Shown here: piece by piece, positions 1,801 to 55,469 of the stretch
How the letters are laid out: every line of letters starts with the position of its first letter
Position numbering within the stretch: the stretch's first letter is position 1
From: Jimgerdemannia flammicorona
Lineage: Eukaryota > Mucoromycota > Endogonomycetes > Endogonales > Endogonaceae
DNA length: 59,060 bases
NCBI GenBank assembly: GCA_003990745.1
Contig: RBNI01000019.1
Location: 1 to 59,060, forward strand
Reading direction: 5' to 3'
Translations under genes and position numbers: made by a program
The notes under the pieces: generated by a model
Databases searched by the model: none
Seen by the model: only the letters and a program-made list of their open reading frames with translations
What the model was told of the DNA's origin: nothing

Positions 1801-2299
1801 ACCAGTCACCATGTTGTCTAAAGACATATCTGTCAACTCTACCACTAGTCAACCTGAACTCAAGATCAAGAAGCTTTATTCAAAGACCCAGATCTCTCAA
1901 TATTAATCAGAAGGAGTCATTGGCCTTAACCTATATTCTATTAAAGAAGTCACTATTTCAGCAATAGGCTGAACTCTAGTGTCTACTGGTATTGCAGTCC
2001 AATATCCTGAAGGACATTATACCAGAATTATACAGTGATCAGGACTCAGTATTAAATATTATTTAGATATTAGTACTGGTATCATTGATTCAGACTATTG
2101 AGAACAAGTTCAAGTCTTACTTATCAACTAGAAGGATTAAAACTACACCATTAAAGAAGGAGACAGAGTCACACAAATGATCCTAGAAAAAGCCAGTCAA
2201 CTCAAGGTTATAGAAGTCTAAGAACTATCTGAAACCAAGTGAGATCAGAAAGATTTTAGTAGTACTGATCAAGCAGCAAGTCTTACTAAAAATTGAGCT

Positions 2300-4150
2300 C
2301 AAGCTATGCTCATTTTCAAAGATTTAGTTAAAGGAAAAGAAGTTCAAGTACTCATAGACAGCAGAGCTATAGGGAACATCATCAATTAGAACCTTATCAA
2401 AAATCTCAAGATTCTTACAAAGTCTGTATCTAAGAATGATAGTGAAGTTACTATTGACAGCACACTATATCCTATTGAGTCAATTGCTGCTAAACTATCC
2501 ATCAAGATTCAGAAATATTGGGAATAAGTAGACTTTGAGATTATACTACTAGGAGAATATAATTTGATCTTAGAAAAACCCTGGCTTATAAAACACAATC
2601 CAAATATCAATTGGTGCTAAAATGAAGTTATTTTATTTTAAGAAGGAGTCAATATCACTATCAAGACAGATAAGCCTATAAACAAGCAATATAGTATAAG
2701 AAAGTACTCAAGAAGGCAGTGTATACCTTTGTTGCAATAGTCCATCTCAAGAAACAAGACAAGAAGCTATCAATTAATGAAAGTATTAAGTTATTACTTG
2801 AAGAATTCAATGATGACTTTCCAGACTAGCTATCTGGTTTACCACCTGTATAAGAAGTTGATAATGTAATCAAACTGACCCCAGGAGCTGTACTATTCAA
2901 GAAATATATATATCACATATCACTACTCAAAATTGAAGCAGTCAAGAAAGAACTAGAAGAACTACTTATACAAGAAGCCATTCAACCAAGCAAATCTCCC
3001 TATGGCTCACCAGTTCTATTTATCAAAAAGAAGGATGGTATACTGTAAATATGTATAGACTATCATATACTCACCAAGCTTACAGTCAAGAACCAATATC
3101 CACTACTCTTGATTGAACAAATTTTTGATGCTTTTAAGAATATGAAGTACTTCACCAAGTTGGATCTCATGTCAGAATACTACCAAATCTAAATCAAGCC
3201 AGAAGATATTTCCAAGACTATATTCATAATTCTCTTTAGACTTTACAAATTTCTAGTTCTAGTATTTAGTCTTACAAATATACCCACCACATTCCAGACC
3301 CTCATGAATTAGATATTCAAGAATAACTATTTATCTTCTTATTGATATATCTTGATAATATCCAGATCTTTAGTACAACTAAAGAAGAATTTCTCAAGTA
3401 TATCCAAATAGTTCTGAAGATCTTGCAAAAATATAAGGTTTATACAAAGCTCAAGAAGTGTGAATTCTTCAAAGAACAAGTTGAATATCTTGATCACATT
3501 GTCTCTGCAAAAGGAATTCAAGTAGATCTGCACAAGATAGAGATAATTCAAGAATAGTCTATTCTATCAAACCTCACAGAACTCCAGTCCTTTCTTGGTC
3601 TAGCTGGCTACTACTATTACTTTGTTAGAAACTTCTCTAGTATTACTGAGCCACTGAATAACCTCATGAGGAAGATATCTAACTCTGATCATTATGTATC
3701 CTATATCTGGGACCTCTTCTGTCAATAAGCCTTCCAAGAACTCAAGAACTATCTGACCTATACTTCAGTTCTATATAATGCAGATCTAAGTTTGAAATTT
3801 ACCATTATTATAGATATATCCAATTTTGCCATTAGAGCAGTCCTGTTACAAGATAATGATAAAGAACATTATCTTATTATCTTCAAGTTCTATAAGTTAG
3901 TCTTAGCTAAGCAAAGCTAGCCACTCATAAGAAGGAGCTACTGGCAATAATATATACCCTAGACTACTGGTAATACTATTTAGAAGATATTGAGTTTGAT
4001 ATTATCACTGATCATCAAGCACTCAAGTATATTAACACCTAATCTACTCTATCATATCTATAAGTCAAGTAGAGTCTCAAGCTTCAAACCTTCAATCTGA
4101 TGATTATCTATAAGTCTGATAAAATACTTATAGTACTAGATACCTTATCT
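2300..4150 (+). pseudogene. A1 pol remnant: protease, reverse transcriptase, RNase H
   Basis: The aspartic protease lies near 2340-2640; the active-site LIDSGA motif is decayed to LIDSRA at about 2350, and a later ILEKPWL block (about 2570) fits the ILG-W-L element. Reverse transcriptase spans about 2790-3560: KKDG, IDY, TKLDL, the Y-x-x-I substrate region and YLDN at about 3345 in place of YxDD. A frameshift separates the fingers/palm from the YLDN part. RNase H follows at about 3780-4060, with an FTIIIDIS block and a DHQAL-like histidine region. The family makes element cDNA in cytoplasmic particles. Stops and the missing second catalytic Asp rule out activity. Confidence 0.85.
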
Positions 4151-16559: not shown

Positions 16560-19500
16560 ATCTATTGGTTTATCTTTTCAACATTGTAGTGGTTTCTTGA
16601 AAAATGGTAGTCTGTGCAATTATAATTAAAGATTCTGGTCTGCAGTATCTCTATCTTTCTTGCTTGTCCAGTAAGTGACACTGAAAGCAATAGTTCAGGA
16701 ATAGTAGAAGATCATTTTATTCTGATGTCTTTTAGCCAAAGAGCTCTTTTCTGGTTTGTTTCTCATCTTAGGATAATAGTAACTATACTTAATCCTTCTT
16801 CAGCATTTCAGAGATTATTATCTTCGAGTAATATTCAGTAGAGATTATTTCAGAGAATAAATTTAAAGAATTTCTCCTATTTGGAGACTTCTTATTCAGA
16901 GGTTCTTTATCAGATATTTGATGACCCAGATTGCTTATACTTCTGCAGCTTTAGTTATAGGTATCTTTGGAGAATAGTTATATTTCTTCTTCCTTTTTCT
17001 ATGTTCAGAGCAGACTATATCAGATGAATTTCTTATTCTAATAATTTTGAAGAAATGTTCAGAGTACTTATATCTTTTTGATATAGGTGGAACATCCCCT
17101 GGCTTGTTCTGTAATAGCTCTAATTATAATGAGGATAGTGTCTTTTGCCCATACATTGTCTTCTGGTCTATCATCTATTAGGTTAATTCATAGGTTGAGT
17201 CTGAGATCATCTCTATCTTTACATTCTTCTTCTTTCTCTATAGTGAATTCTTTATTACTAGTATACTCTTTCTGAATAGTAACCTTCTTTTTCTTCTTTG
17301 ATTACTTAAAACTAATTATCTTGATCTAGTATTTCTTTTCTCTATAGTTGAATTTGAGCACCTATTGGCCAATATCAATAACTATATTAATCTTCTTCAT
17401 CTAGTCAGTATTAAGGATTATATCATATTTCTTGACCACAGCTTTTAGAATAGAGAACTGAATACATCTTCAGAAGATAGTGATTTTTTATACTTCTCCA
17501 AGGAATTGAGTTTAGGCTCTATCTACTACTATAATGCTGAGGTTGGATGGTTTATAAATAGACCACTAGAGGGTATCTATAAATTATTTATCAATTATAC
17601 AGATAGCTACTACTGCATTAATGAGGATTTTTGTCTTCTATCCTCTAATATCTCTATGCAGATATATACTTATCTGTCTTTCTGCAGTCGAAATAGTAAT
17701 TGGTACTAGTTCTTGTTATAGAATTAGAACTTGGCCAGTGGTAAACCTGGTAGTTTTCAATAGTTTATTTGAACTCTAGCAGGTATCAGTTGTAGAAACT
17801 CCAGAAGAGAGACTTCTATCTTAGTTTCTTAAATCTTTTATCAGACTTCATTATAGATATCTCAGGATATAGTTCTTGGAATATACTTTATCTTGGGATT
17901 TGAGACAATAGGCTCTTATTCTTTTTATACTATTTACTCATTCTCTGGTAATAGTGGAACTAAAAGGTGAGAGAAATCAGAGAGATATTTTGACTTACTC
18001 TTATTTATCTTCCTTATCTTCTTTCTGGACAGTCCTTCTGCTAGTATTTCTAGATAGCCTTCCTACAGTTCTCTTTCTTTTCTCAGCTGGGTAGACTCTT
18101 TCTTAGAGATGACCTTGGTTAGATATAGGTCTAGATCTAGATTACTATAGTCTTTATTATTGCTTTTCTTGAAGTATTTGATAGAGTAGACTTTAGTCTT
18201 CTTATACTAGATTGTACTCTTTCAATTTAGTAGTTCTGAGTCTCTTTGGTCACTTTTTTAGTTATTATAATCTGTGACATAGTATCCAAACTGTCTGCAA
18301 TAGGAGTATTGAACTTGAGCTCTATCTTGAAGTAGATATCTTCTTTCTTCTTATGGCTGATAGCTCCTATTGTCTCTGGGTGAGTAGTCTTGATTTCTTT
18401 AAAGTAAGTATCCTTTGTTATTTGGAAGGTAGCTCTGATTTTTACAAGTAGTGAGTTTTTTATTTGTCCAATCAGTTGGTCCAACTTAGTGTTAGAGTTC
18501 TGGATTTTACTTCTCTCTTTCTTCTGATTTTATATATTCTTGAAGGAGTTCTTGTAGGGTTTTAACCAAGAGATCTTTCTTATCATCTTTCTTATTATGA
18601 TCACTCTAGGTAGTTCTTTTTCTGATATTGAAAAATTCTTATACTGTATCAATTTATTCTTCAGGCCTTTGGATATCTAAGATATAGATATACTAGGCAA
18701 TGTTTGGGGAAATCTCATTTATAAAGATCATTAGATCTATATATAATACTCTATTTAGTAGTATTGAACCTGACTATATATATTCTTTTTTGGATTCTGA
18801 TGAAGATTGCTCTATATAATTCTCTGAGATTTATCTTTATCTTCATAAAGAATTCTTGAGCCTTATAGCAGATTTCATTTTATATATTTTTTTAATAAAC
18901 CAGTGAGTCATGGCTTCATATTCTTCTTTCTAATCAGAATGGCTTTCTAAGGTCTACATATATATTATTTACTACTCAGTTGAAATTTCCCTTAGCTGGT
19001 TCCCTAAGTTGGACTTTGAAGATGGTAATTTTTCTCTAGACAGTAAGATTCTTTAGTGCTTCTATTACTTTGATCACATCAGAGGATTCTCTTGAGTCTT
19101 CTTCTGAATATTCTGTAAAGGTTGATATTAGGATGGTCATTTCATCATTACTGTCTCTGTTTCCAATTCTGGTTATGATTTTAGTTCTGATTTACTTTCT
19201 GAGTTATTGCTAGAGCTTAGAATACTTGAGTATCCTGAAGATAGAGTTGTTGGTCTTAAGAAAGATATAGTAGATCTGAGAATTCTTAAAGATATTGAGC
19301 TAAAAATATCTATTGGTCCCAGTAGTAGTGAGATTGATAGTACTTCTGCTGCAAAGAACTAATATTGGGCAATGTGATCTTCAATTTCTTATATATATTT
19401 ATAAAAGTTTAGATATAGTCTTTTATATTTTCTAACTAGATAAGATCTCTTAGTAATAAGTCTACTATAGAAAACAAATATTAAATAGTGTAATCTTTAA

Positions 19501-19820: not shown

Positions 19821-20179
19821 TATAATATATTAGCTCAATGAAGACAAATTACAAAATTGAAACTACTATATAGTTTAGCTTGAACTTTTAGTTACTTTGT
19901 CAAAAATCAACAAAATGTTCAATAGTTTCTCTTAGAAATAGGGGTAAATTCTGTTTTATGCATAATATGAATGATTTTGATAATATTTTCAAATTAGACA
20001 GAATCAGTATAATATGGCAAATTAGGTGGAGTTTTGAATAAAGCAGGTTTCTTAAATATGGCAGATGATGTGGATTTTTTCTAAATCAGTGGGTTTTTTT
20101 AAAAATGGCAAACATCTTGAAGTAGTTACTCAGATAAAGTAAATTCTTTCTGAATCAGCAGACTTCTTCTTCTTTATAT
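19821..20179 (-). repeat. B2 5' LTR, distal (U5) part
   Basis: Left end tataatatat corresponds to tgtaacatat of B1. It continues to the B1 insertion point, where target ATAT (20176-20179) is repeated after B1 at 30397-30400. Confidence 0.8.
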
Positions 20180-21518
20180 TGTAACATATCTGGCTCAATA
20201 GAGGCAAATTACAAGGTTGGGAGTTGGTGTAGTTTGGCTTGAGCCCCCAGTTACTTTGTTAAAAGCAACAAAATATCCTTAGTGTTTAGTAGTATAATAG
20301 TCAAAGCTGGATATCTGTGAGTGATTTCCTTATTGGGATGGTTCTCTGGGTGTAGTGGTGACTTGTGAATGGATTTCCTTCTTGAGTCAACTGGGAGTTG
20401 GTAGAATTTCCTGTATAGTGTGAGCAGTGAGATGATCTGGCAATTTGGTGGTCCTCCTTATGCAATTTCTGTATGACAATCTTGTATAGCATGACAATCT
20501 CTGTATGCGATGGTCTGGTGATTTAGCAGTTCTTCTTCTTGGGTAGCAATCTCGAAATGTATATAATTTCTGATGGATAACTTGATTTAGACACAGCTTC
20601 CCTAAAATGGCAGCTTACTGGGAATTATGCTGGCAGCAGATTCTTCTATATTGGGCTCACTGGGAACAAACAACTTAGATGTTGTAGAAACTCAGATGGC
20701 ATGAATCGGGCTCTTCTGAGAATAATAACTCAGATGGTGCAGATTCTTCTTGAATTGGTGGCTTCAACTGGGAAATAACTTAGATGGCATAGATAACTCA
20801 GATGTTATGGATTCTTCCTGAATTGGTGGCTTCAACTGGGAATACAAACAACTGATGACTTTTGGGAAAGGGTCTCTTGGCAAAGTTATGTCAAAGACTG
20901 GCTTCATTTGTATGAATGGATTTACTGTGAAGTTGTGTCAGAAACTGGCTTGAGTAAGGCAGCTTTCTCTTAGGCTTTCTGGGAATGCAGAGAATAACTT
21001 AGAAATGGTGGCAAAGTTCTTTCTTGAACTTGGGTGGCAAACTTGGATTCTTCAGACTTATCCGGCAAGCAAACCAAAAGCAGACTTGTTCTTTATATCA
21101 GAAAGTGGACCAGAGTGGAAAGGAATACTTTACTCACAATCTTCTAGCAGTGGCTGTAGAGTTCCTCTCAAAGTGTAGTAGGCAGACTTGACTTTTACTT
21201 TGGATTCAATTTGGACTGAGGTTTATTCACTCTTATATCTAGGGTAATTTATACAGTTGTAGTTACTATGGGTTACTATGTTGCTAGCTATAGATTGCTA
21301 ACTATGGCAAGTGTTTCTTGGTGGTACAGTGTACCTTGAGGGTATAGTGTATCTTGAGGGTATAGTGTACCTTGAGGGTACAGGTAAACATACTGTTTCT
21401 GATATCTCTGACTAAATATACAGGTTGGCACAGTAAAGCAGTCTTGGTTGCTTAGTGTACTAGATATAGTATGTGACTAATTTATGATTTTGGCAGTACA
21501 ATTCTGTTGCTCATCACA
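20180..21518 (-). repeat. 3' LTR of B1
   Basis: Runs from tgtaacatat (left) to ctcatcaca (right), where the minus strand reads tgtgatgagcaac. It contains three tandem copies of a 21-bp unit (gtaccttgagggtatagt type, 21332-21390) in U3, against about one in the 5' LTR. Confidence 0.9.
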
Positions 21519-21533
21519 TCAGCCCCCACTAAA
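21519..21533 (-). promoter_or_regulatory. Purine-rich tract before B1 3' LTR
   Basis: On the minus strand ttagtgggggctga immediately precedes tgtgatg. The position and G-rich character fit a plus-strand primer, though it is not a pure purine run. The same sequence is conserved in B6 at 54107-54121. Confidence 0.6.
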
Positions 21534-21559
21534 GGATGCTCTGCCCTCAGACAATCCTT

Positions 21560-23060
21560 TAGTCATCATTCCAATATGTATAAACATCTTCAGCATTAAT
21601 ACCTAAACCAGTATTTTCATTTGAGTCAGAGTCACTTCACTTAATAGGTGCTTCTTCTTCTGGAAACAGGATTTTGACATAGTTGATGATACTCCAGTAA
21701 GTGGCAGGATTCATGTTCTGAATGTCATTTAGAAGAAATTGTACTTATATCAAGGCTGAGATATTTCATTTATAGATTGTGTACAATCTGTCTGCAGCAG
21801 TGGTATTTTTCTGGGTGAGGCCAGTGGAGTTTCTGATATAGGTCAGGTCTACTGCTGGGAGGTTCTGCAACTGTTCTCCAATTGCATAGTAGGCCTGCAG
21901 CTAATGGACTTACAGTAAATGTCTGGCCAAAGTGAGGTTCTCTTGATGGGTCTGGATTCGCTGAAGGGAGTTTCTATTGGCTTATTGGAATTGTGAAAGG
22001 GAAACTGGAAGTGATTGGAATGAACTCAGAACAAGGGTCTGGAGGCACTGATCAACTGTCTGATTCATGATGGGAGAGGTATATCTTAAGGCAGTTGATA
22101 TGTACTAGTGTCCTGAGGGTTCATCCATCCATGCTTCTTAAATAGATACTGGTTCCTCTGATGTTGTATACAAGATAAGGTCCTTCCCATTTGGGTTCCA
22201 ATTTGGTGGCAAAATTTATTTAAATCATACTTCTCCAAACTAGTACTTGATCTCCAATCTTGATTTTCTGATCCTTCTGTTTCTGGTTATAATACTTCTT
22301 TTGTCTTTCTTGGGCTTTGATAATCTGACCTCAGGCTTGATTATATAACTGTTCTGCCTTCTTGAGGAGGTCTCCAAGATTCTCATGGTCAGCAGTTCTG
22401 GTTTTCTTGGCAAATATCATTTTGAATAGCTTTTGTTTAGTGGAGGTAGCAGGGGTGTTCTGAATTTCCCATAGGATCTCAGGTAAGCAGAGGTCCTAAT
22501 TAATAGGATTGACTCAGGTAAGTCCTTTCTTGATGGTCTGATTCATTCTTTCTGTCATGCCATTGGTCTGAGGGTGGTAGGATGTGGTCTGTTTGAGGTG
22601 GATCTTGTGAATTCGAGTATAACTTATGATTATGTTGTTGATGAATTCTGTGCCTTAGTTAGAGATGAGTTCTTCCAGGGGTCCATATCTGAGTGTGAGT
22701 CCATGGAGAAGGCCATCAATAGTTAAGACATCTGCAATTTCCATTGGGAAAGCCTTGGGCCACTTGGTCAGATGTTCTACAAATATAAGAATATATTTGT
22801 TTCTTCTTAGTATAACTGGTAGAGGTCTAATTACATCTATTCCCCATCTCTGAAAGATATTGTCTGGTGGTGTAATTGGTTGCAATGGTGCTTGATAGTT
22901 CTTCCTTCCTTGGTACTTCTGGCAGGTATCATATTTCTTAAGTATATCCCAGACTTGTGTTCTGAGATTGGGCCAATGTTGGTGTGTTGTCCACAGCTTC
23001 TCTTCTATATTTGCCTGTCCCTGGTGAGATTTCTGATATTCTTTTCAGATGAGATCTTCT
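21560..23060 (-). pseudogene. B1 integrase and C-terminal extension
   Basis: Zinc-binding region near 22920-23040: the His pair and DTCQKY, where the second Cys of C-X2-C is Tyr. Core: PPDNIFQRWGIDV (first Asp, about 22840), TKWPKAF, then LISN-stop-GTEF (about 22650), where the second catalytic Asp reads Asn and a CAA became TAA, then NGMTERMNQT (catalytic Glu, about 22550). A KWEGPYLVYNIRG block (about 22190) is the GPY motif. Beyond it lies a glutamine-rich extension to about 21560, with no chromodomain. Integrase would insert the cDNA; the lost Asp makes this copy inactive. Confidence 0.85.
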
Positions 23061-23124
23061 TGTGCCTTTATGGTCTGAGGAGCTTCCTTTAGAGTATAGT
23101 TCCTCAGGACACCCATCTTCTGGT

Positions 23125-23560
23125 TTATTGGAGTTGGTAGGAAAGTACATCAACATTGTTGTAAGCTTTCCCTGCTTTGTAGATGATGGTGATTTTGTAA
23201 TCCTGAAGAATAAGAATCCAGCAGGCTAGGATTCCTTGTGATTGAATAGCCATTTGAGAGCTGCATGGTCTGTGATCAGGGTGAACCTTTTTCTGATAAG
23301 ATAATCCTTGAACAGGGTGACTGCCCATATGACTGCAAGATATTCCAGTTTAGTGCTACTATAGTTCATCTGCTGCTAATTGATTGCTCTGCTTGCATAA
23401 GCTATTATATAGTATTATTGATCAGGTCCTTCTTGGGCTAGAACTGCTCTGAGGCCATCTTTAGAAGTATCTGTATACAAGATGAATGGCTTCTGTAGAT
23501 TGGGGCACACAAGGATTAGTGCTGTAGTCATGTGGTTCTTGAGTTCTTTGAAGGCTTTTT
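23125..23560 (-). pseudogene. B1 RNase H domain
   Basis: Minus-strand frames give DTSKDGLRAVLAQE (about 23480-23440), a YASRAIN block, then TKLEYLAVIWAV (catalytic Glu region, about 23350) and TLITDHAALKWLF (Asp-His region, about 23270-23240). This is the order seen in Ty3/gypsy RNase H, which removes the RNA template. Two stops interrupt it. Confidence 0.85.
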
Positions 23561-23599
23561 CTTATAATTCTGTCTATTTGAATAGTACTTCTTTCTTGA

Positions 23600-24545
23600 G
23601 AAGGATTTAGATTAGGGCAGCAATTGGGGCAAAATCTTTGATAAATCTTCTGTAGTAGGATACCAGCATCAGGAATGATAATGTTTCCTTTGGGGTCTTG
23701 GGTGCTGGCTTGTTGTTGATCTTTTCAGTTTTCTTTGGGTCTGCATAAGTTCCTTCTTTCAAAACTATGAATTCAAGGAATTCAAGTTTCTGTTTCCCAA
23801 AGTAGTATTTCTTTGCATTCAGTCTCAAGTGGTTCTTATGGTTGAGCTTGAAGAATTCTTCTAGATAGTGTAGGTGTTCTTCAAAATTTGCTGAATAGAT
23901 GTTAGAATTATCCATATATATAATCAGGCAGTAGTGGATTAAGGGGGCATAGACTGAATTCATTATCCTCTGAAAGGTGGGAGGTATATTGCAAAGTCCA
24001 AAGGGCCTTTGGAGGTATTTGAACAGTTTCTCTGGAGCAAGGAAGGCTGTCTTTTGAATGTCTTTGTGGTCTATGGGAATCTCATGGAATCCTACAAAGA
24101 GATCCATACTGCTGAAGTATCTGGTATCTTATAACTGATCCAAAAGGTCATTGATTCTGGGCAAAGGATAGGCATCCTTTTCAGTGACTGAATTGAGTTT
24201 CCTGTAATCCACACAAAGTCTCCATCCTCCTTTCTTTGATATAATAAGTATAGGGCTGGCCCAGGGGCTGGTAGAGGGTTGGATGACTCCATTGTCTAAG
24301 AGTTCTTGAATGTGCTCCTTTTCGAATGTTTTCAAATAATGGGGGATTCTATAGGGTTTCTGCCATATGGGTGTTGTATTTCCTGTATTTATGCTATAGT
24401 GATATAATGGGTTATATGGCAGGTTGCCATAATCGGTAGTGAAGATATCTTGATATTTGTTGAGAAGTTCTACTAGTTGTTGCTGTTGCTGGAGTGTCAA
24501 TTCTTCTCCAATGTTGGTGGAAGGCTTCACTGTCTCCTGGGTCAC
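23600..24545 (-). pseudogene. B1 reverse transcriptase
   Basis: Two long open stretches (24545-24129 and 24107-23607) in the same frame, divided by one TAA that reads as a former CAA. Motifs in order: [31 protein letters not shown] (first Asp), FSSMDLFVGFHEIP, FGLCNIPPTFQ, IIYMDNSNIYS, then FLEFIVLKEG and FLMLVSYYRRFI. The YMDN at 23907-23918 lacks the second catalytic Asp. Length and order are normal for Ty3/gypsy. Confidence 0.92.
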
Positions 24546-24939
24546 AGAGGGGCCTTTCCTTTCTTCTAGGACCTTTTGCCATTTTCCGATAAGTTTAGTT
24601 CATAAACTTCCCTATGAGTTCGGCTGAGAAAAGGCACCAGGTGTTCTATGATAGTTCCTTTTGGCAAGATGATGGTCTCCCAACTTTGGTTGGTTGCTCA
24701 GAAGTATACTGGATTCATCTTGTCAGGAAATGTGTATCCTTTTATATCCAGGTGTGGGATATCTTCATTGGGTTCAAAGAAGAGATTTCTGGGATCAGGT
24801 GGTGCAAAGATTTCAAAGGTGGTTTGTTCTCCAGGCTCCAGGATGAGATTCTTATATAGTTTGACTAGTTGGTGGTATACTTGCTGGGGAATATTTCTCT
24901 TGAGGTGGTTGACTTGAAGGTGATGTACTTCCTACTTAT
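24546..24939 (-). pseudogene. B1 linker between dUTPase and reverse transcriptase
   Basis: About 130 codons continuing the pol frame with four stops. It includes EPGEQTTFEIFAPPDP, FEPNEDIPHLDIKGY and a TIILPKGTIIEHLVP segment. The segment resembles the protease-like or dUTPase-like beta-rich tails of some retroelement polyproteins, but no named domain is recognised. It is absent from B3 along with the dUTPase. Confidence 0.5.
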
Positions 24940-25345
24940 CCAAGCTTTCAAATCCTTTGGCTTATCTTGTTCCTTCAGTCAGTTCAGAAACTTCTTGTAA
25001 TTGTTGGGTCTTGACCTTCATGAAGACTGCTTGGGTGATCTTCTGTCCTCTAATAATTTGGTACCATTCTCCACTGCTATTGTGTAGGATGACCTTGATT
25101 TCACCTGTATATCCTGGGTCAATGGTTCCTCATTCTATAGTTATTCCTTGTCTGGCAAGTCCAGACCTTGAGGTCAGTTGGATGTAAGCTCCTTGGGGTA
25201 GCTGCATGGCTAATTCAGTTCTGATCATGAAGGTTTTTTCAGCCTTGATAGATTTATCCTCCAGACTGTGAAGATCATATCCTATATCCTCTGTATGGGC
25301 TTTGGTCAGGGGTTTGGCCTTGGGATGCAGCAGGGCATACTGGGC
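24940..25345 (-). pseudogene. dUTPase domain inside the B1 polyprotein
   Basis: About 135 codons on the minus strand with the five conserved motifs of the trimeric dUTPase family in order: IGYDLHS (25264-25288), LTSRSGLA (25151-25172), GTIDPGYTGEIKV (25101-25130), an IRGQKITQAV block (about 25040), and a C-terminal TR-x-AKGFESL that stands for the RGxxGFGS glycine-rich arm. The tyrosine of motif 3 and its preceding Asp are kept. Two stops are present: TGA just before GTID and TAA at the position after TR. The family hydrolyses dUTP to dUMP and pyrophosphate and so limits uracil in cDNA; some retroviruses carry one. Position between protease and reverse transcriptase suggests it was a Pol domain. 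Confidence 0.88.
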
Positions 25346-26128
25346 AATATCCTTGCTGAGTTCAGGCTGACCTCAGACTGAAGCTCCACTAGCAGAGAGC
25401 CTCCAAGCTCTAAGGTTGAGGTGTGGCCATCTGGCTCCAGTAGAGAGGTCTTGGAGATAGTTGATTCCTCTTCTTTCTGTAGGGTCTAGGGCTTCTGTGA
25501 AGTTGGTGACATCTTCTACCCATCCTTGGCAGGTTATATGTCTGATAAGAGCTAGAATGTCTTCTCCTAAATTGTAGATCTTAAGAGTCCTTCTTCCTGG
25601 CTTTTTGGACTGGCTTTTTCATATCTAGCTTTGGTTATCTCCTCTCTTCAAAGTGTGGATTGCAATATCATGACTGAGATAGATCTTCTGATGCCTATAG
25701 TCTCAGCAGTCTGGGTGTCTTTCATGGTTACAATATTCCATTGCTTGGAAATGGTGTTTCTGGTTATTGATCTCTTGTTGTCTTGGGAATTGATATCCAT
25801 CTTGATCATAAGTTGGTGGAAGAGTAGACAAGGAGTATACTTCTGTCTGGGTGAAGAGACCTTACTCTCTGAATTGGTTTTGCAACTTGGTGGTAACTTC
25901 TTGAAAGGTAGTTGACTGTATAACTGTGTTTGGGGGTTCTGGTCTCTAGAGTCTCTGTCTCTCCTATTGGTCTAGTAGATGGCACTGATAGCAGTAGTCT
26001 CAGGGGGAGTGGAAGACCATTTGGTGTGGATATCTTCCTAGCTGAAAAGCCTTTTCTTGGTGAGTTTCTTTCTTAGGAATAACGGTAATTGTGCTGGGTC
26101 CTTCTTCTATATTTCAAGGGTCATTATC
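25346..26128 (-). pseudogene. B1 linker upstream of dUTPase
   Basis: Largely open minus-strand sequence (about 260 codons) with several stops and at least one frame change. It is rich in charged residues and has no recognised domain. Includes a RSISVMILQSTL stretch and LRAWRLSASGASV just before the dUTPase. Its left two thirds are missing from B3. Confidence 0.5.
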
Positions 26129-26530
26129 TTAAGGTAGTGTCCAGCAAGGGTCATCCCAGGGAATGAGTTCAGGGACTTCTTCCTCTTTGGGTACTTCTTG
26201 TTCAGGAACTTCTTGGTCAGGAACTTCTTGGTCAGGAACTTCTTCTTCCTTAGATGATTCTTGTCCCCAAAATGCTTGCACTTCTGCAGCTTCAGCTGCA
26301 GGTGTTTCTGGAACATGTCTGCATTTCTTCTTCTTCTTTCTGCACTCTGGGCAGGCTGTGCCAGGCGATTTCCTTATTTCCATGACCTTGGAGGAATGCT
26401 CAGGACACTTGTATCTCTTGAGGCAGGTAGGGCATCCTTTGAATTCTCCTGCAATGGCTCCAATGGTGATAGAGATGGTGTTCTTGGCCCACACATTGTC
26501 TTCTGGTCTGTCATCCACTAGGTTAATTCA
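26129..26530 (-). pseudogene. Cys-rich linker with pentapeptide repeats (B1 pol)
   Basis: 129 open codons following the protease in the same frame (separated by one TGA). Contains two metal-binding-like clusters: CPTCLKRYKCPEH and, 17 residues on, CPECRKKKKKCRH, each C-X2-C followed by C and H at fixed distance. Then comes an acidic run with three tandem DQEVP-type pentapeptides. B3 retains the acidic repeats and flanks. The role is unknown; a zinc-binding nucleic-acid contact is a reasonable guess. Not a canonical retroviral knuckle. Confidence 0.7.
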
Positions 26531-27112
26531 GGGGTTGAGTCTGGGATCATTTCCATCTTCAGATTCTTCTTCCTCCTCTGTGGTAGACTCTTTACTGCTG
26601 GCATATTCCTCCTGAATAGTGACCTTCTTCTTCTTCTTTGATTGCTCATAGCTGGTCACCTTAACTCTGTACTTCTTGCCTTGGTAGTCAAACTTAAGTA
26701 CTTGTTGTCTAATATCAACAACTGCATTCATTTCCTTCATTCAGTTGGTGCTGAGGATCATATTATAGTTAACAGCTTCATTGATGACAGCTTTGGGGAT
26801 GGAGAACTGAATGTGTCCCAGAGAAATGGTGATATTTTATACTTCTCCAAGGGATTGAGTTCGGGCTCTATCTGCTACTATGATGCTGAGATTGGATGGT
26901 CCATCAATGGGCCATTGGAGAGTGTCCAGGAAATATTTGACAATGACACAGACAGCTGCTCCTGTGTCTATGAGGATCTTCACCTTTTGTCCTCCAATAT
27001 CTCCATATAGGTAGGTGCTGACATATCTTTCAGCTTCTTGGACAGAGATGGGAACTGGTTCTTGCTGTGGGATTGAGACTTGGCCAGTGCTGGACCTGGT
27101 TGTTCTCAACAA
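26531..27112 (-). pseudogene. B1 aspartic protease
   Basis: LIDTGAAVCVI gives the active-site D-T-G at 26960-26968, preceded by GGQKVKI. Then a VADRARTQSLGEV block and NMILSTN-stop-MKEMNAVVD follow, the equivalent of the ILGTDWL helix block with W changed to stop. A lysine-rich and then acidic tail (SKKKKK, EEYASSKESTTEEEE) closes the domain. It would process Gag-Pol. Two stops. Confidence 0.85.
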
Positions 27113-27179
27113 TTTGTTTCAAACTCCAGCTGGTGTCAGTTGCAGAAACTGCAGGAGAGGGACTTCCATCTTGGCCTCT

Positions 27180-29040
27180 TGAATCTTCTACCAGGCTTCA
27201 TTGTAGATATCTCTAGGCATAGTCTTCAGGGTGTACTTCTTCTTGGACTTTGAAGCAGCAGGTTCCTGTTCTTCTTGTTCCATTTCTTCATCTTCTAGTG
27301 ATAGCTCATTTGTCTTGAGAACAAAAGGTGAAGGAGTCTGGGGAGGTGTTTCTACTTGTTCCTCTTCATGTTCTTCATCTTCTACTTGGATGATTCTTCT
27401 GCTAATGTTCCTGGATGGCCTTCCTACAGGTCTCTTCCTCTTCTCTGCTGGGTAGACTGTTTTTTGGATGGTAACCTTGGTAGGGTACAAGTCTAGGTCA
27501 CTGTAATCTTCACTGTTGCTTGCTTCCTCGAAATCTTCAACAGGATGGGCTTCAGCTTTCTTATACTGAGTGTCATTCCTTCAGTTTAGTGGTTCTGAGT
27601 CCCTTCAGTCACTTCTTTTGTTATTACATTCAGTGGCATAGTGTCCAAATTGTCCACAGTAGAAGCATTGGACTTGGGCTCTGTCTCAGACAGAGTATCT
27701 TCTTTCTTCTTGCTGATAATTCCTATTATCTCTTAGTGGATAACCTTGGTTCCTCTGTGGTGGGTATCCTCTGTTATCTTGGTAGCTCTGATTTTTGCAT
27801 ATGGTGAGTTTTTCAATCTGTCCAACCAATCAGTCCAACTTGGAGCTGAGGTCTTAAATTTCACTCCTGTTCTTTTTTTCTTCTATAGCTGGCCTTCTTT
27901 CTTCAGATCTTTCTTGTCCTTGAAGGAGTCCTTGTAAGGCCTTGACCAGAATGTTCTCTTTATCTTCTTTTTTGTCATAATTACTCCAGATAGTTTTTTG
28001 TCTGACATCAAAGAATTCTTGGGCTGAATCTACTTGCTCTTCAGACCTTCTGATGCCTAGAGTGCAGACATGCTGGACAATGTTCAGGGGAATCCCATTC
28101 ATGAAAGTCATTGGACCTATGATATCCTGGTTATTGGCATTGAACCCAGCTATATGCATTCTCTTCTGGATTCTTGTGAAGAAGGCTCTGGGTGATTCTT
28201 CAAGATTCATCTTCATCTCTATGATAGATTCTTGAGTCTTGTGGCAGGTTTTGTTTCCTGCATACTTTTCAATAAGCCAGTAGACCATGGCCATATATTC
28301 TAGCTCATAAGACATTGCTGCTTATTTCTGTCTTGTCAGTTCTGAATTTGGGTCATTTGCTGTTCAGTGGAAAATTCCTCTGGCTGGTTCTCTGAGCTGA
28401 GCCTTATAGATGGTGATTTTTCTTTCATCTGAGAGATTCCTCAGGGCTGTAATTCCTTCAATTCCATCAAGGAATTCTCTGGGGTCTTCTTCTGGATATC
28501 CTGCAAAGTTGGCAATGAGGTGGCCATTTCATTATCACTTTCTTCTGATTCTGGTTCTGGTCTGGATTCTGATTCTGATTTACTTTCTGAGCTGTCACTA
28601 GAGATAGGAGTGCTTGGATATCCTGAGGATGGTGTTCTGGATCTTAAACAAAGTGGAATGAGTCTAGATATTCTTATAGGAGCTACTTCCAACTCTACAA
28701 GGGCTTGTGGTAAAGGTTCTATTAGTGAGATTGATGGGACTAGTATGGGGTGTCTGGCTGTACGATCTCAGACTTGTGTAATAAGATCTTCTAGTTCTTA
28801 TACAAGTTCTTCAAAATCTCCAACAAGACCACCTATATTGTCTGGTTGATCTGGTTGGGGATTTCAGGCTATACTGCCTTCTGGTTCTGGTTGGGATTCT
28901 TCTGATGCTGGGTAGTTAGCAAGTCTTGATGTGATTACTTCTCTTTCTGTCCAAATGCTGGTGATAACTGGTTCTTCTATACTGACAGAGATTGGTGTTA
29001 TATCAAATGTATCCAGTTTGACTGTGGGTTCTTGTGAGCT
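27180..29040 (-). pseudogene. B1 gag with intact CCHC knuckle
   Basis: Frame from about 29030. The N-terminal part is acidic and Ser/Glu-rich (SSESKSESESRPEPESEES, about 28600). The capsid core is at 28440-27854 (DPREFLDGIEGI, then FFTRIQKRMHIAGF and IGPMTFMNGIPLNI), typical of Retrotrans_gag. A CCHC knuckle, CFYCGQFGHYATEC, lies at 27626-27667, followed by a basic segment (AEKRKRPVGRPSRN, an AT-hook-like GRP core) and an acidic tail. One frameshift near 28450 and several stops disrupt it. It would assemble the element RNA into particles. Confidence 0.88.
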
Positions 29041-29065
29041 GAAAAGTCATGTTGATTTTGAAATC

Positions 29066-29083
29066 TTCCCAGTTGAGTCCCCA
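29066..29083 (-). promoter_or_regulatory. Candidate primer-binding site of B1
   Basis: On the minus strand tggggactcaactggga begins 2 nt after the 5' LTR end. The same sequence follows the B3 LTR (35908 onward). Starting with TGG fits pairing to a tRNA 3' CCA end; the tRNA was not identified. Confidence 0.55.
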
Positions 29084-29085
29084 AA

Positions 29086-30396
29086 TGTAACATGCCTGGC
29101 TCAATGGAGACAAATTACAAAGTTGGAGGTTGGTGTAGTTTGGCTTGAGCCCTCAGTTACTTTGTTAAAAGCAAAAAAATATCCTTAGTGTTTAGTGGTA
29201 TAATAGTCAAAGCTGGATATCTGCAAGTGATTTTCTTATTAAAATAGTTCTCTGGGTGTAGCAGCAACTTGTGAATGAGTTTCCTTCTTAGGTCAACTGG
29301 GAATTGGTAGAATTTCCTATATAGCATGAGTGGTTTCCTTATGCAGGATAATCTGGCAATTTGGCAGTTCTTCTTTATGATTTCTGTATGATGATCTTGC
29401 ATAGCACAATGATCTCTATGTGTGATGGTCTGGTGATTTAGCAGTTCTCCTTCTTGGGTAGTGATCTCCAAAAGTATATAATTTCTGATAGATGACTTGA
29501 TTTAGGCATGGCTTCTCTGAAATGGTAGCTTACTGGGAATTATACTGGCAGTGGATTCTTCTGTATCAGGCTCACTGGGAACAAATAACTCAGATGTTGT
29601 GGAAACTCAGATGGTGCAAATTGGGCTCTTCTGGAAATAATAACTCAGGTGATACAGATTCTTCTTGAATTGGCAGCTTCAACTGGAAAATAACTCAGAT
29701 AGCATAGATACTAAGATGTCACAGATTCTTAATAAATTGGCAACTTCAACTGAGAATATAAACAACTGGTGGCTTTTGGGAAAGGGTCTCTTAGCAAAGT
29801 TACATCAAAGACTGGCTTCATTTGTACAAATGGATTTACTGCAAAGTTGCATTAGAAACTGGCTTAAGTAAGGTGACTTTCTCTTAGGCTTTCTGGGAAT
29901 GTAGAGAATAACTTGAAAATGGCAGTGAAGTTCTTCCTTGAACTTAGATTGCAAACTTGGATTCTTCAGGCTTATCTGGTAAGTGAACTAAAAGCAGACT
30001 TGTTCTTTATATTGGAAAGTAGACTGGAGTAGAAAGGAATGCTTTGCTTACAATCTCTTAGCAGTGGCTGTAGAGTTCCTCTCAAAGTATGGTAGGCAGA
30101 CTTGACTTTTGCTTTGGATTCAATTCAGACTGAGGTTTATTCAATTTTGTCTCTGGAGTAATTTATACAGTTGTAGTTGCTATAGGTTACTATTTTGCTA
30201 ACTATAGATTGCTAACTATGATAAGTGTTTCTTAAGGGTACAGTGTACCTTGAGAGTACAGGTAAACATACTGTTTCTGGTATCTCTGGCTAAATATACA
30301 GGTTGGCACAGTAAAGCAGTCTTGATTACTTAGTGCACTTGATATAGTATGGGGCTAATTTATGATTTCAGTGGTACAATTCTGTTGCTTATCACA
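29086..30396 (-). repeat. 5' LTR of B1
   Basis: Left end tgtaacatgcc, right end ttatcaca. It carries a TATA-like tataaatt and, about 25 bp further in transcription direction, a gaataaa signal (around 30140-30168), leaving a long R-U5 of nearly 1 kb. It differs from the 3' LTR by many transitions and by U3 repeat number. Confidence 0.9.
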
Positions 30397-30845
30397 ATAT
30401 CAAAAAGTAGACCAGAGTAAAAAAAGAAGCTCCCAATCTTCTAAGTAGTATCTGTAGAGCAGGTGTTTCTCCTAATTATTGCAATCCTTCCTAGATTAAG
30501 TGGCTTTTAGTAGATATATATCTCAAAGTATATTAGACAGATATGTATGTCTTTTACTTTAGAACTTTTTGGACTGAGATTTATTCACTCAAATCTCTGG
30601 AGTATTTTATACAGTTGTGGTTGCTATCTGGTTGCTATCTGGATAATTATACAATATACCCTAGTGCTATTTTAGGAAGGGAGTGACCAGGTGTGCCTGC
30701 TGGGGATAGGTGTGTCTGCTGGGCACAGATCGACATACCTGATTTGGTATGTCTGGCTAATTATATAAGTTGTGGCACATGTGCATAACTATGCTATGCC
30801 AAGTGTTCATGTCATCTGGCTATACTATGTTATTCGCTCGTCACA
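30397..30845 (-). repeat. B2 5' LTR, proximal (U3) part
   Basis: Resumes the B2 LTR after B1 (gttctttatat | caaaaagtagacc joins to the standard LTR sequence). Ends tcgtcaca, so the minus strand begins tgtgacgagcgaataac. U3 holds two copies of a ggtgtgtctgctgggcacag-type unit (30689-30730). Confidence 0.85.
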
Positions 30846-35989: not shown

Positions 35990-37800
35990 ATAATACTAAT
36001 CTCTGCCACTACAGAAGGACTAGTCATTACTAGTATTTTGACAAGAAGAGAAGTAATTATCTCAAGACTTACCAACTATCCTACATTGGAAGAATTTTAT
36101 TCAGATATCAGTACAGTATAGAATTCTCAGCCAGTACTAACAGACTTATAATCAGATCAATCAGATTATACAAATAGTCCTGCCAGAGTCTTGATGAGCT
36201 TATATAATAACTTAAAGATCTCATTATACAGGCCTGATTTCCAGCAGAAGTTCTACCAATTTCACTCATTGAGCCTCTACTGTCAGCTATCACAGAACTA
36301 GAAGAACAAGGGGTAGTTTCTTCAAGAATGTCCAGATCCATTGCATCTTACCTAAGATCTATAATACTATTCTTAAGATACTCAAGTATCCTGAACTTCA
36401 GCAATAATTCAGAAAGTAAACCAGAATTAGAATCAGAATCAGAACCAGAACTAGAATTGAAACCAGAATTAGAATTAGAAGATAGTAATAATAAAATGGC
36501 CACCTTATTGTCAATCTTTACAGAATATCTAGAAGAAGACCTGAGAGAATTCCTTAATAGAATTGAAGAAATTGCAGCTCTGAAGAATCTCTCTCCTGAA
36601 AGAAAAGTTGCCATCTATAAGATCCAACTCAGAGATTCAACTAGAGGAATTTTCACCTAAGCAAGAAATGATATATATTCAGATCTTAGAGTAGCCATCT
36701 ATATAGCACTAATCTGGCTAGCAGAGTATGAAGTCATGATCCACTAGCTCATTGAGAAGTATACAGGAAATGAGATCTGTCATAAGGCCTAAGAATCAAT
36801 TATAGGAATTAAGATGAATCTTAGAGAATTGCAGAGCACATTCTTTATAAGAATTTAAAAGAGAATGCATGCAGCTAGATTCAATGCTACTAACTAAGAC
36901 ATTTTAGGCCCAATGATCTTCATTAATGGGATTTCCCCAAACTTTGCTCAACATATCTATATCCTAGGCATCAGAAGACCTAAAGAGCAAGTATTATAGC
37001 TCAAGAATTTTTGATTTCAGACAAGGAACTACCTGGAGTAACTATGATAAAAAGGATGATAAGAAGGACCTCCTGATCAAGGCCCTATAAGAACTTCTTC
37101 AAGGATAAGAAAGACCCAAAGAAAGAAAGCCAGCAGAAAGACAGGAATGAAATCTATGACCTCAGTTCTAAGTTGGACCAATTGGTCAGACAAATTGAAA
37201 AATTCACTATATATAAAAATCAGAGTTACTTACAAGATAACTAAGGGTACTCACCATAAAGAAAACAAGGATACCCACCCAGATATAGGAGTTATCTGTA
37301 AGAAGAAAGAAGATATTCTGTCTGAGATAGAGCTCAAGTCCAATATTTCTACTATAGATAATTTGGGCACTATGTCACTGAATGTGACAATAGAAGAAGT
37401 GACCAAAGAGACTCAGAATCTTCAAATCAAAAGAACAAAACTCAAGACAAGAAGACTATAGCCCACTCTGTTGAAGACTCTGAAGAAAAAAGTAATAGTG
37501 AAGGTTACAGTAACCTAGACTTATATCTAGTTAAGGTTATCATTAGAAATACAGTCTATCTAGTAGAGAAAAGGAAGCAATCTGTAGAAAGACCATCCAG
37601 GAATAGTAGCAGAAGAATTATTCAAAAAGAAGATAAAGAGCATAAAGAAGAGTAAGTGGAAAAACCTCCTTAGTCTCCCTTACCTTTTATTCCTAAAACA
37701 AGTAAACTACCTTTAGAGGATGAAGAAATAAAGCAAAAAAAATGAGAGCTTGCTTTCTCAAAGTCTAAGAAGAAGTATATTCTGAAGACCATATTCTAAG
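35990..37800 (+). pseudogene. B3 gag remnant
   Basis: Acidic Glu/Ser region at 36400-36490, then capsid core (LREFLNRIEEIAALKNLSP at 36540-36600; IGPMTF-like block near 36910). The CCHC region at about 37335-37385 reads as a decayed knuckle, followed by a basic then acidic tail to 37760. Many stops and frame changes. Matches B1 gag over its whole length. Confidence 0.8.
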
Positions 37801-37899
37801 ACATCTACAATGAAGCTTGGCAAAAGATTCAAGAAGCCAAGATAGAAGTTTCTCTACTCTAGTTTCTACCACTGACATCTGTAGGAGTCTGAAACAAAT

Positions 37900-38850
37900 T
37901 ATTAAAAATCACTAGATCCAGAACAAACTGAGTTTCAATTTTATAATAAGAACTAGTCCCAGCTACTATTTAGACTATAGGAAGATATCTCAGCACCTAT
38001 CTATATAGAGATATTGAATGACAAAAAGTGAAGATCCTCATTGAAATAAGAGCAGCTGTCTGCATTATTACTAAATATTTTCTAGATCCTCTCTAGTGGC
38101 CCATTGATGGACTATCCAACCTCAGCATTATAATAGCAGATAGAGCCTGAACTCAACCCATTGGAGAAGTATTGAACATTACTATCTCTCTGAGATATAT
38201 TCAGTTTTCCAACTCAAAAGCTATTGTTACGAAAGCTGTTAATTCTTAGTACCAATTAAATGAAGGAAATGAATGCAGTTATTGATATCAGGCAATAAGT
38301 ACTCAAATTCAATTACTAAGGAAAGAAGTGCAGAGTTAAGATGACCAGCTATAAAAAAAAGAAGGTCACTATCCAAGAAGAATATACCAGTAGTGAAGAA
38401 TCTACTACAGAAGAAGAAGAAGAATCTGAAGATAGAAATGACCCCAGACTCAATACACAAATCAACTTAGTAGATGACAGGCCAGAAGACAATGTGTGGG
38501 CAAAGAATACTACCTCTATTACAATCGGGAGCTATTGCAGGATAAATCAAAGGATGCTCCACCTATTTCAAAAGACACAAGTGCCTTGAGCACTCTTCTA
38601 AGATTATTAGAACAAAGAATTCGCCTGGCACAGCCTGCCCTGATTGTAGAAAAGAAAGAAGAAATACAATTACACTTCAAAAACCCCCATAGATGAAGCT
38701 GCAGAAGTATAAGTAATTTGGGGTCAAGAAATGTCTGAGGAAGAAGAAACATCTGAACAGGAGGTTTCTGAACAAGAAAAGCTCCTTGAACTTGTCCCCT
38801 GGGATGATCCTCACTGGATACCACTAGAAGATAATGATATCTGGAATTTT
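37900..38850 (+). pseudogene. B3 protease and Cys-linker remnant
   Basis: The protease active site is decayed (LIEIRAAVCII in place of LIDTGAAVCVI, about 38035). The acidic tail is open at 38341-38530 (VTIQEEYTSSEESTTEEEEE, then RPEDNVWAKN). The Cys clusters are largely destroyed, but the SEQEVSEQE repeats and the PWDDP block (38740-38815) are kept. Confidence 0.75.
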
Positions 38851-39244
38851 GAAGAAGGATAAAGTATAGTCACCATTATTTCAAAATGAGAAACACACCA
38901 GAAAAGAGCCTTTTGGATAGGAAGATATCTATATCAAATAGTCTTCCACTCTCTCAAAGACTACTACTATCTGTATTACTTACTAGATCAATAAGAAAGA
39001 CAAAGACCCCACAGACCAAAAGTCTCAATTACAATTGCACAAACAATCACCTTCTATAAAACTACTATAATACTAAATAGTCAAGCAAAGAGATAAGGTC
39101 TCTTCATCTGAATAGAAGTATAACTCTTGGTCACACTTCCTTCAATCTATGACTAAGATAGATACTGATTCCCAAAACAACAGGAGATTAGTAACCAAGA
39201 ACAGTGTTTTCAAGTAATGGATATTGTAGTCCACTAACATTAGA

Positions 39245-40180
39245 GAAGAATTAATACCTCAGCAATAGCAACAACTAGTAGAACTCTTTCATAAATATTG
39301 AGATATCTTCACTACTAATTATGGCAACCTGCTATACAACTCATCATATCACTATAGTATAAATACTGAAAATGTAACACTCATTCACCAGAAGCCTTAT
39401 AGAATATCTCATCACCTAAAGATATTTGAAAAAGAATATATTCAAGAACTCTTAGATAATAGAGTCATCTGATCCTCTACTAACCCCTGTGTCAGTCTCA
39501 TACTTATCATACCAAAGAAGAGAGAATAGAGAATCTGTATAGACTATAAGAAGCTCAACTCAGTCACTAAAAATGATACTTACTACTTGCCTAGAATTGA
39601 TGACCTCTAGGATTAGTTAAACAATGCCAGATACTTCAGCAATATAGATCTTTTTGCAGGACTTCATAAGATTTCTATAGATCTCAAAGACATTCAGAAG
39701 TTAGTCTTTCTTGCTTTAGGAAAACTGTTTGAGTATCTCTGAATACTGTTTGGACTTTACAATATACCCCCCACCTTTCAAAAAATAATAGACTCAGTCT
39801 ATGGCCCAATGATTCATCACTGTCTAATTATATATATAGATGATTCTAACATCTATTTATCAAATTTCAAAAAACACCTATATCATCTAGAAGAATTCTT
39901 CAAGCTTACTCATGAATTATCTGAGGCTCAATACCAAGAAATGCTACTTTGGAAAACAGAAACTTGGATTTCTTAGGTTCTTAGTTTCAAAAGAAAGAAT
40001 CTATACAGACCCAAAGAAAACTGAGAAGATCAATAACTTGCCAGTATCTAAGATTCTGAAGAAAACACTATCATTCCTAATATTGGTTTCCTATTATAGA
40101 AGATTTATTGAAGACTTTGCCCAAATCACTGCTCCAATCCAAACTCTTCTAATAAATAAAGTATCTTATAAATAAACCAA
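39245..40180 (+). pseudogene. B3 reverse transcriptase remnant
   Basis: Starts within nine bases of the junction that replaces the dUTPase. Motifs: KPYRISHHL, RICIDYKKLN, FSNIDLFAGLHKI, FGLYNIPPTFQ, and YIDD at about 39832-39843, so the catalytic pair is kept here although lost in B1. FLRFLVSKE and SYYRRFIEDF follow in the open stretch 39912-40175. Several stops and one frameshift. Confidence 0.85.
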
Positions 40181-40189
40181 ATCACAAGA

Positions 40190-42150
40190 ACTAGTCTTCA
40201 AAGAACTCAAGTACTGTATGACTACAGCACCTATTCTTGTTCAGCTCAATCTACAGAAGTCATTCAACTTATATATAGATATATACTTCCAAAGATGATC
40301 TCAGAGCATTTCTAGCCCAAGAAAGACCTGATTAATAATATTATATAATATCTTATATAAGCTTAGCTATCAATTAGCAGTAGATCAACTATAGTATTAC
40401 TAAATTGGAATATCTTACAGTCATATAGATAGTTATTCTGTTCAAATATTACTTTATTAGAAAATGATTAACTCTGATAATCAACTATACTGCTCTTAAA
40501 TAGCTATTCAATTATAAGGAACCTACTAGAATTCTTACTTGCTAGATCCCTATCCTCTAGAATTACAAAATCACTATTATCCATAAAGCAGAAAAGACCC
40601 CCAATAATATTAATATACTTTTCTACTAATCTCAATAAATCAGAAGAAGTATATACTGAGAAACTACACTCTAAAGGCAGCCCCTCTGACCATCAAAGTA
40701 TAAGATCACATTTGGAAAGAACACTAGAATGCTTACTAAGAACAGATGAATATAGAAGAAAAGATATGAACAATGTATCATCAATGGCCCAATCTCAGAA
40801 TACAAGTTCAAGACATGCTTAAGAAATATAATATCTGTTAGAAATAATAGAAGAAAAAGAACTATCAAGCACCACTACAATCAATTAAACCACTAGAAGA
40901 TATCTTTTAAAGATGGAGAGTAGATATAATTAGACCTCTACTAATCATACTCAGAAGAGACAAATTTATCTTCATATTTATAGAATATCAGACCAAATGG
41001 CCTGAGGCTTTCCCAATAAAAATTACTGATACCTTAAGACTCCTCCATAGACTCACACTCAAATATAGACCTCCAGAAGAACATATCTCTGACTAAAGCA
41101 CAGAATTCATCAATAATATAATTATAAGCTATACCTGAATTCACAAGATCCATCTCAAACAAACTACATCATACTACTCCCAAATCAATAGTATGACAGA
41201 ATAGATGAATTAGACCATTAAGAAAAAACTTACCCAAGTTAATCCTACCAATTGAGATCTCTATTTATCTGAGATCCTATGGAAAATCTGGAACATCCCT
41301 AATACTTTTACCAAAAAAAAGCTATTTGAGATGATGTTTGCTAAGAAAACCAGAACTGCTGACTATGAGAACTTTTTGGAAAGACAGAATAATTATATAA
41401 TCATACCTGAGCTCAGATAATCAAAGCCCAAGAAAGATAAAAAAAAGTACTAAAATCAGAAGCAGAAGAATCAAAAGATCAGAATTAGAGATTAAATACT
41501 AGTTTGAAGAAGTATAATTGAAATAAACTTTACTACCAAACTAGAGCCCAAATGAGAAGGATCTTATTTTATATATAATATTAGAGAAACCAGTATCTAT
41601 TTAAGAAGTATGGATAGATGAACCTTAAGGACATCAGTATATATCAATTACCTCAAGATATATCTACACTATAAACCAGAGAATTGACCAGTACCTCTAG
41701 ACTCACATCATCAGCTCCTTCCAAGCTCTGCTAGTTCAAATATTTCAGTTTCACTCACTTGAAGAAACCTCAATATAATTGATCCAAAAGCATCAAGAAA
41801 GCCTTGCTATTACATAAAGATTATAATAGATTTACTACCTGCAGGTCTTCTACAGTATCAGACCACACTATTGTAAGAATTACTATATATAGAAGAACTA
41901 GCTGATATAGTCTGCTGAGAAGTCCGAACTGCAAAAAGACTCTATACTTAATATAAATAAAACAAAGAGGCCTTGTTACAAGCCCACTTTTAACTAACTA
42001 ATATCTGCCAGATAAATGAGATAACTTTTCAGAGTGTCCTCAATAAGTAAACTTTTTATTTCTCAAAGAATCTGAGGAGAATTCAGAATTAGAATAGAGT
42101 TATCCTGACTTCAACAGAGATGATAGTACTGGTATTAATACTGAAGATAC
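40190..42150 (+). pseudogene. B3 RNase H and integrase remnant
   Basis: RNase H blocks at 40270-40600 (DDLRAFLAQE, TKLEYLTVI, LIINYTALKQLF). Integrase core at 40900-41200: QRWRVDIIRPL (first Asp), ISDQSTEF (second Asp kept) and MTE-stop-MNQT (Glu kept). The GPY-like block EGSYFIYNIRETS is near 41560, then a C-terminal extension to about 42150. No chromodomain. Confidence 0.8.
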
Positions 42151-55457: not shown

Positions 55458-55469
55458 GTGGTGCAATTG
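55458..55469. repeat. Left target duplication of the retroposed sequence
   Basis: gtggtgcaattg, identical to 56681-56692. B1 has a single similar site (ggtggtgtaattg) here, confirming a later insertion. Confidence 0.88.

Follow-up and report, generated by a model that had tools for sequence, protein, structure and literature searches.

Betaretroviruses, in which the order is zinc knuckle, dUTPase, protease (PR), and non-primate lentiviruses carry a dUTPase, and the domain also lies within the polyprotein of reverse-transcribing badnaviruses such as Dioscorea bacilliform virus, as indicated by a match in BFVD; badnaviruses are plant DNA viruses without long terminal repeats (LTRs) and integrase (IN). 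Closer to the present case, the Gypsy dUTPases of Postia placenta are placed at the N-terminus of Pol, at the C-terminus, or between PR and the reverse transcriptase (RT), their varied positions being taken to suggest independent acquisitions, and earlier reports of a dUTPase in elements of Phanerochaete and Tuber are cited (PMC2864245). Planarian elements with a dUTPase have also been described (PMC6431247), Entomophthora muscae shows an enrichment of the dUTPase profile PF00692 together with domains of retroviral type (PMC11105155), and the betaretroviral dUTPase has been likened to that of fungal chromoviruses (PMC2774666). The text of PMC4531489 makes no mention of retrotransposon, fungi, fungal or Ty3, and that of PMC3248453 has no word starting with "dutp". 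Here we analyze a stretch of 59,060 nucleotides from Jimgerdemannia flammicorona (contig RBNI01000019.1; hereafter the window), in which a segment of the minus strand is a dUTPase domain inside a Ty3/gypsy LTR retrotransposon, the class being given by the LTRs and the order of the domains. We refer to the family of this element as family B.

Family B and PosPlaTy3-5 with its kin are fungal Ty3/gypsy elements that have the dUTPase placed between PR and RT, a likeness taken from the published description, and the two genomes are alike in holding several dUTPase positions; a possible difference is that the elements in the P. placenta dUTPase tree are said to have a chromodomain (PMC2864245). Tmt1 of Tuber melanosporum and elements of Phanerochaete chrysosporium, reported in 2008, are further cases of a fungal LTR-element dUTPase, likened here by citation alone (PMC2864245). 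The bdelloid rotifer elements Juno, Vesta and TelKA place the dUTPase as family B does, between PR and RT, but belong to animals and carry various ORF3s (ORF, open reading frame) (PMC5408684). Fungal gypsy elements with this placement of the dUTPase are already in print, and family B adds to a known kind. The assumption of the original prediction that Ty3/gypsy Pol normally carries no dUTPase may hold as a rule, with a fungal exception already known, and its suggestion that the arrangement might be new in fungi is overtaken by the same report (PMC2864245). Less expected are the location of the dUTPase on the Gag-PR side of a -1 frame change with a GGGAAAY heptamer, a possible second barrel in the linker that follows it, and the differing dUTPases of other families; what is added is a very abundant dUTPase-bearing family, with selection on the domain shown across copies.

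The dUTPase as a constitutive domain of family B

Translation of the window gave all five motifs of a trimeric-type dUTPase in the correct order, and PF00692 (Pfam) matched the piece with E 7.6e-24 (84.4 bits, cut-off 22) over residues 21-142 read from 25372 downwards, approximately 25312-24947, both results agreeing with what had been predicted. Among solved structures ranked by sequence, 2okd (vaccinia) and 8cga (Mycobacterium tuberculosis) scored 90.4 and 80.4 bits, above 1duc, which we take to be the dUTPase of equine infectious anaemia virus (65.2 bits), and 1f7d, of feline immunodeficiency virus (63.0 bits). The predicted structure of a relative has the trimeric-type fold; an early model was poor (mean pLDDT 34.5). 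The protein database contained three relatives with PF00692, none of 689 candidates for a longer query reached E 0.001, and the viral contigs searched gave four loci at 37-38% identity.

LTRs, gag, PR, RT and RNase H were found around the domain, which lies in a single gag-pol unit as proposed, in the order gag with a zinc knuckle, PR, Cys-rich stretch, mid part, dUTPase, linker, RT, RNase H and IN (Table 1). The order PR-RT-RNase H-IN and the TG..CA LTR ends with a target-site duplication are those of Ty3/gypsy elements, the four-base duplication ATAT, in AT-rich DNA, being weak by itself. The two LTRs are 87.6% identical (1132 of 1292 aligned bases) and differ by 146 transitions and 14 transversions; this ratio of approximately 10:1 and the low CpG observed/expected value of the element (0.036 over 20180-30396, versus 0.26 in the whole window) suggest that the repeats have decayed heavily by C-to-T change, because of which LTR divergence is no clean clock. 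The prediction of a Ty3/gypsy element whose dUTPase stands between PR and RT is borne out, in a genome that looks fungal by its weak matches to transcription-factor and Zn2Cys6 profiles. The stops and frame breaks of this copy had gone unmentioned: besides stops, it is broken by frame changes, and it is dead.

The assembly from which the window comes (134.8 Mb, 7,754 contigs) was searched with the dUTPase piece, giving 5,262 first-look candidates, and all 150 that were scored matched; leaving aside the copy in the window itself, their identity was 80-86%. In a dUTPase-selected sample of 30 loci, window copy included, PR, Cys-rich part, mid part, dUTPase and linker were present in order in every locus and RT in 29, the remaining one (L046) showing no RT in its flanking sequence; L036 is truncated, and part of RT is missing from L043. 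Because this sample had been picked by the dUTPase, a second one of 30 loci was picked by RT alone, with four loci, the window copy among them, common to both. dUTPase and linker lie upstream of RT in 29 of these RT-selected loci, and the thirtieth (L066) starts at a contig end. The dUTPase is a constitutive domain of a very abundant Ty3/gypsy family, and its proposed membership of family B holds at all 29 loci with a readable upstream part.

The window also contains a related copy (at 36505-41672) without dUTPase and linker, in which the mid part ends at approximately 39234 and RT starts at approximately 39230, as could be expected if an independent insert, a host gene or otherwise, had landed only in the copy that carries the domain. 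This keeps practically no probability, the domain occupying the same place in the 29 readable RT-selected loci instead of being absent from other family B copies; the exceptional copy is missing the linker as well, in the manner of a deletion, and four of its six best RT matches at 72-75% identity (C4943, C2740, C3467 and C2759) carry the dUTPase, the other two (C2462 and C3397) not being among the dUTPase matches listed. The missing part is read as a probable deletion, at a junction where the alignments are too diverged for naming a breakpoint. Insertion into a single copy is ruled out by the RT-selected sample.

The dUTPase evolved under purifying selection. The median ratio of nonsynonymous to synonymous substitution rates (dN/dS) was 0.139 in the 24 of 30 dUTPase-selected copies without gaps; in the 21 with an ungapped dUTPase-linker block it was 0.144 for the dUTPase and 0.191 for the linker, with control readings of 0.965 and 1.514 in the two shifted frames and 0.865 on the other strand. 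Of the 30 RT-selected copies, eight were set aside because of gaps, frame breaks or a contig end; the other 22 gave values of 0.215 for the dUTPase and 0.223 for the linker (control frames 0.884, 1.023 and 0.819). In these 22 copies R69, S70, D85, Y88, Q114, R136, F141 and S143 are conserved throughout, and D33 (21/22), G142 (20/22) and G71 (17/22) less fully.

Reading frames and probable function

In the dUTPase-selected loci the frame of the dUTPase is shared by the mid part (30/30), the linker (27/30), the Cys-rich part (25/30) and PR (24/30), and, compared with the dUTPase, RT is shifted to the -1 frame at 24 of 29 loci; those that deviate from the common pattern are taken as decayed. The dUTPase-linker frame is closed by a stop 843 bases past the dUTPase start in all 22 RT-selected loci, and in nine of them the -1 frame has its longest open stretch from +770 onwards. 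The overlap holds, at +785, one in-phase heptamer of the form X XXY YYZ, GGGAAAT or GGGAAAC (GGGAAAY), in 20 of 39 copies (the 22 RT-selected and 17 dUTPase-selected ones); the commonest other heptamers, AGGAAAT (9 copies) and AGGAAAC (5), would be consistent with a decayed CpG at the heptamer start. GGGAAAC is a slippery site used by retroviruses. At the passage from RT-RNase H to IN, no slippery heptamer was found in the 22 loci; the first frame ends where the second begins, and in the 15 loci in which an anchor word was found the boundary reads AATGA, a stop overlapping a start, in 13 and AATAA in two. The window copy has AATAA.

The reading that we favor, with a probability of about 0.72, is that the family B dUTPase is a constitutive and selected domain in the PR frame, upstream of the -1 change, which would be made with Gag-PR and guard the complementary DNA (cDNA) from uracil. 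The domain was most likely an active dUTPase in life, and its role in keeping uracil out of cDNA is suggested by the conserved active site together with selection. Gag, PR and dUTPase would be made together as an upstream polyprotein, and the dUTPase would be packaged in the particle, then freed by PR and assembled as a trimer; by hydrolyzing dUTP to dUMP it would ensure that RT builds no uracil into cDNA, as proposed for retroviral dUTPases. Its place upstream of the frame change, a putative frameshift, would have it made at the Gag level, above the lower level of RT, so that particles would be expected to contain the enzyme at a high dose. With this domain of a fungal element, it becomes testable whether cDNA quality depends on retroelement dUTPases.

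Several points weigh against this reading. The dUTPase-selected set was picked by protein similarity, which lowers dN/dS; PR is in a different frame at 6 of its 30 loci, read as decay; a gag sharing the dUTPase frame was seen only in the window copy; 19 of the 39 copies are without the GGGAAAY heptamer; and the frameshift is itself read from sequence. In addition, the window dUTPase has three in-frame stops (one TGA, one TAG and one TAA), and stops occur inside the domain in 12 of the 22 RT-selected copies, as might be expected of a passenger that was captured and copied along without function. This is very improbable given dN/dS values of 0.14-0.22 versus 0.82-1.51 in the control frames, and of 0.151 for the dUTPase of another family, A (19 of 20 copies); we infer that function was retained while the family spread, the copies decaying afterwards. 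A domain maintained for a job in the polyprotein that is structural or regulatory, and not for dUTP hydrolysis, would have a reported precedent in the dUTPase-related gene of bovine immunodeficiency virus (PMC4261571), and the adjoining linker may be a non-catalytic relative. However, such a job needs no invariant catalytic Asp, Tyr and Gln, nor motif II Arg and Ser, all of which are invariant in the 22 RT-selected copies, and we consider it unlikely.

The linker and the origin of the domain

Suggestive evidence raises the possibility that the linker, which joins the dUTPase to RT, is itself a dUTPase-like barrel, the second in the element and non-catalytic. Compared with the dUTPase profile the linker gave an hhalign E of 0.058 at a probability of 0.9%, one of 150 column shuffles scoring equally high, and in a joint dUTPase-linker model the predicted strand order is alike, the fold search barely covering the linker. 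It matched nothing in Pfam, and its best hit among solved structures (E 1.2) was unrelated. A search of open-licence papers, only partly aimed there, found no description of a PR-RT linker that is a second dUTPase-like barrel. A more speculative scheme, which we hold to be doubtful, would have two tandem dUTPase-fold barrels, an active enzyme and the degenerate linker, both at the Gag level upstream of a GGGAAAY -1 frameshift, with integrase perhaps in a third frame reached via AATGA; the gypsy PR-RT linker would be an old dUTPase-like domain and the dUTPases now present there later gains or re-duplications. In the linker, a stop at residue 225 (numbering from the beginning of the dUTPase) recurs in 10 of the 21 dUTPase-selected and 4 of the 22 RT-selected copies, CAA or CGA standing there in the remaining RT-selected copies; this could be read as a decay hot spot or as a spreading broken subfamily.

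A host dUTPase was sought in the genome with PF00692, a Chlorella dUTPase segment and two motif patterns and none was found, although one could be hidden by introns or lie beyond the 150 candidates scored. Among the 150 matches listed for the Chlorella segment all are at most 50% identical and many lie at places of family A; the first motif pattern gave six matches, and the four that were read all look like elements, while the second gave none. The phylogeny put forward with the original prediction was run with 17 and 13 rows, the reference rows being all non-fungal dUTPases. It placed all element rows together with support 50/52, where long branches meet, and families A and B as one clade had a p-AU of 0.119 (approximately unbiased test). 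Such few-row trees settle neither the number nor the source of captures, and the proposed capture of a host-type dUTPase gained no backing, as the host searches gave no gene for comparison. A retrovirus-like or pararetrovirus source in place of a host could be argued from the two best fold matches in BFVD, both badnaviruses with the dUTPase likewise in a long polyprotein, but 2okd and 8cga outscore the two lentiviral structures 1f7d and 1duc by sequence and the trees resolve no source; we regard it as quite improbable.

At least four divergent dUTPase-bearing families (A, B, D and E) are present in this genome, with which repeated capture or shuffling becomes a concrete question. The best-scoring PF00692 matches belong to family A, not B. 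In 14 of 20 cut-out family A loci the order, by eye, is zinc knuckle, dUTPase, PR, and at one locus Pfam gave, in order, PF00098, PF00692 (1.1e-36) and PF08284 (4.2e-10); copy L004 has a dUTPase that shares 50-52% identity with those of plants, algae, algal viruses and Entamoeba and approximately 30% with that of family B. Family D is known from one locus (C892), with a zinc knuckle below cut-off, PF00692 (2.8e-29) and a downstream PR (PF13975, 2.1e-13). This order, found in the two families A and D, is shared with betaretroviruses, whereas in family B the dUTPase follows PR. The family E loci (C2049, C3613 and C4209; with C892 these correspond to L083-L087) have a dUTPase approximately 40% identical to that of family B, with PF00692 at 6.1e-29 in one, and in C4209 it is followed, by eye, by a linker and the start of RT.

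Other features of the window

A second, different and more decayed dUTPase, at 1919-2272 of the plus strand, had also gone unmentioned; it belongs to the first element of Table 1.

Table 1. Coordinates of retroelement features in the window.
Feature	Position	Strand	Remarks
Remnant of family A type element	1919..3773	+	dUTPase, protease-like stretch (by eye), RT
Fragment of related gag-pol element	16576-19131	-	
3' LTR	20180..21518	-	1339 bases; ATAT outside at 20176-20179
Integrase region	22061..23044	-	GPY/F-like end by eye; PF13683 0.0019, below cut-off
RNase H	23199..23618	-	approximate ends; PF17917 4e-29
Reverse transcriptase	23610..24503	-	PF00078 2.7e-23; -1 frame relative to dUTPase
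Place of -1 frameshift-like heptamer	24581..24587	-	altered in window copy
Linker between dUTPase and RT	24617..24931	-	possibly second, non-catalytic dUTPase-like barrel
dUTPase domain	24929..25372	-	five motifs, PF00692, 3 in-frame stops; fold from a relative's model
Cys-rich stretch	26261..26500	-	Zn2Cys6-like half motif, kept in relatives; PF00172 ~0.02, below cut-off
Aspartic protease (PR)	26606..27055	-	PF13975 1.1e-7
gag with CCHC zinc knuckle	27536..28525	-	PF00098 7e-5
5' LTR	29086..30396	-	1311 bases; ATAT outside at 30397-30400; element runs on minus strand
Related, more decayed copy	36505..41672	+	without dUTPase and linker
Fragment of related gag-pol element	43079-44053	-	
Fragment of related gag-pol element	54655-55467	-	

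The integrase core PF00665 was matched in two relatives, at 6.1e-9 (over cut-off) and 3.3e-7 (just under), and one 146-residue stretch after the integrase of the decayed window copy gave no Pfam match, to a chromodomain or otherwise. The Cys-rich stretch between PR and dUTPase resembles half of a fungal Zn2Cys6 cluster; PF00172 gave E values of 0.015-0.044 in all eight relatives scanned, all below cut-off, and the mid part after it has a further Cys/His motif. Between two decayed elements, an open frame of 606 codons with approximately 54% GC occupies 32156-33976 of the plus strand and has a weak match, below cut-off, to a fungal transcription factor profile (PF04082, E 0.0029).
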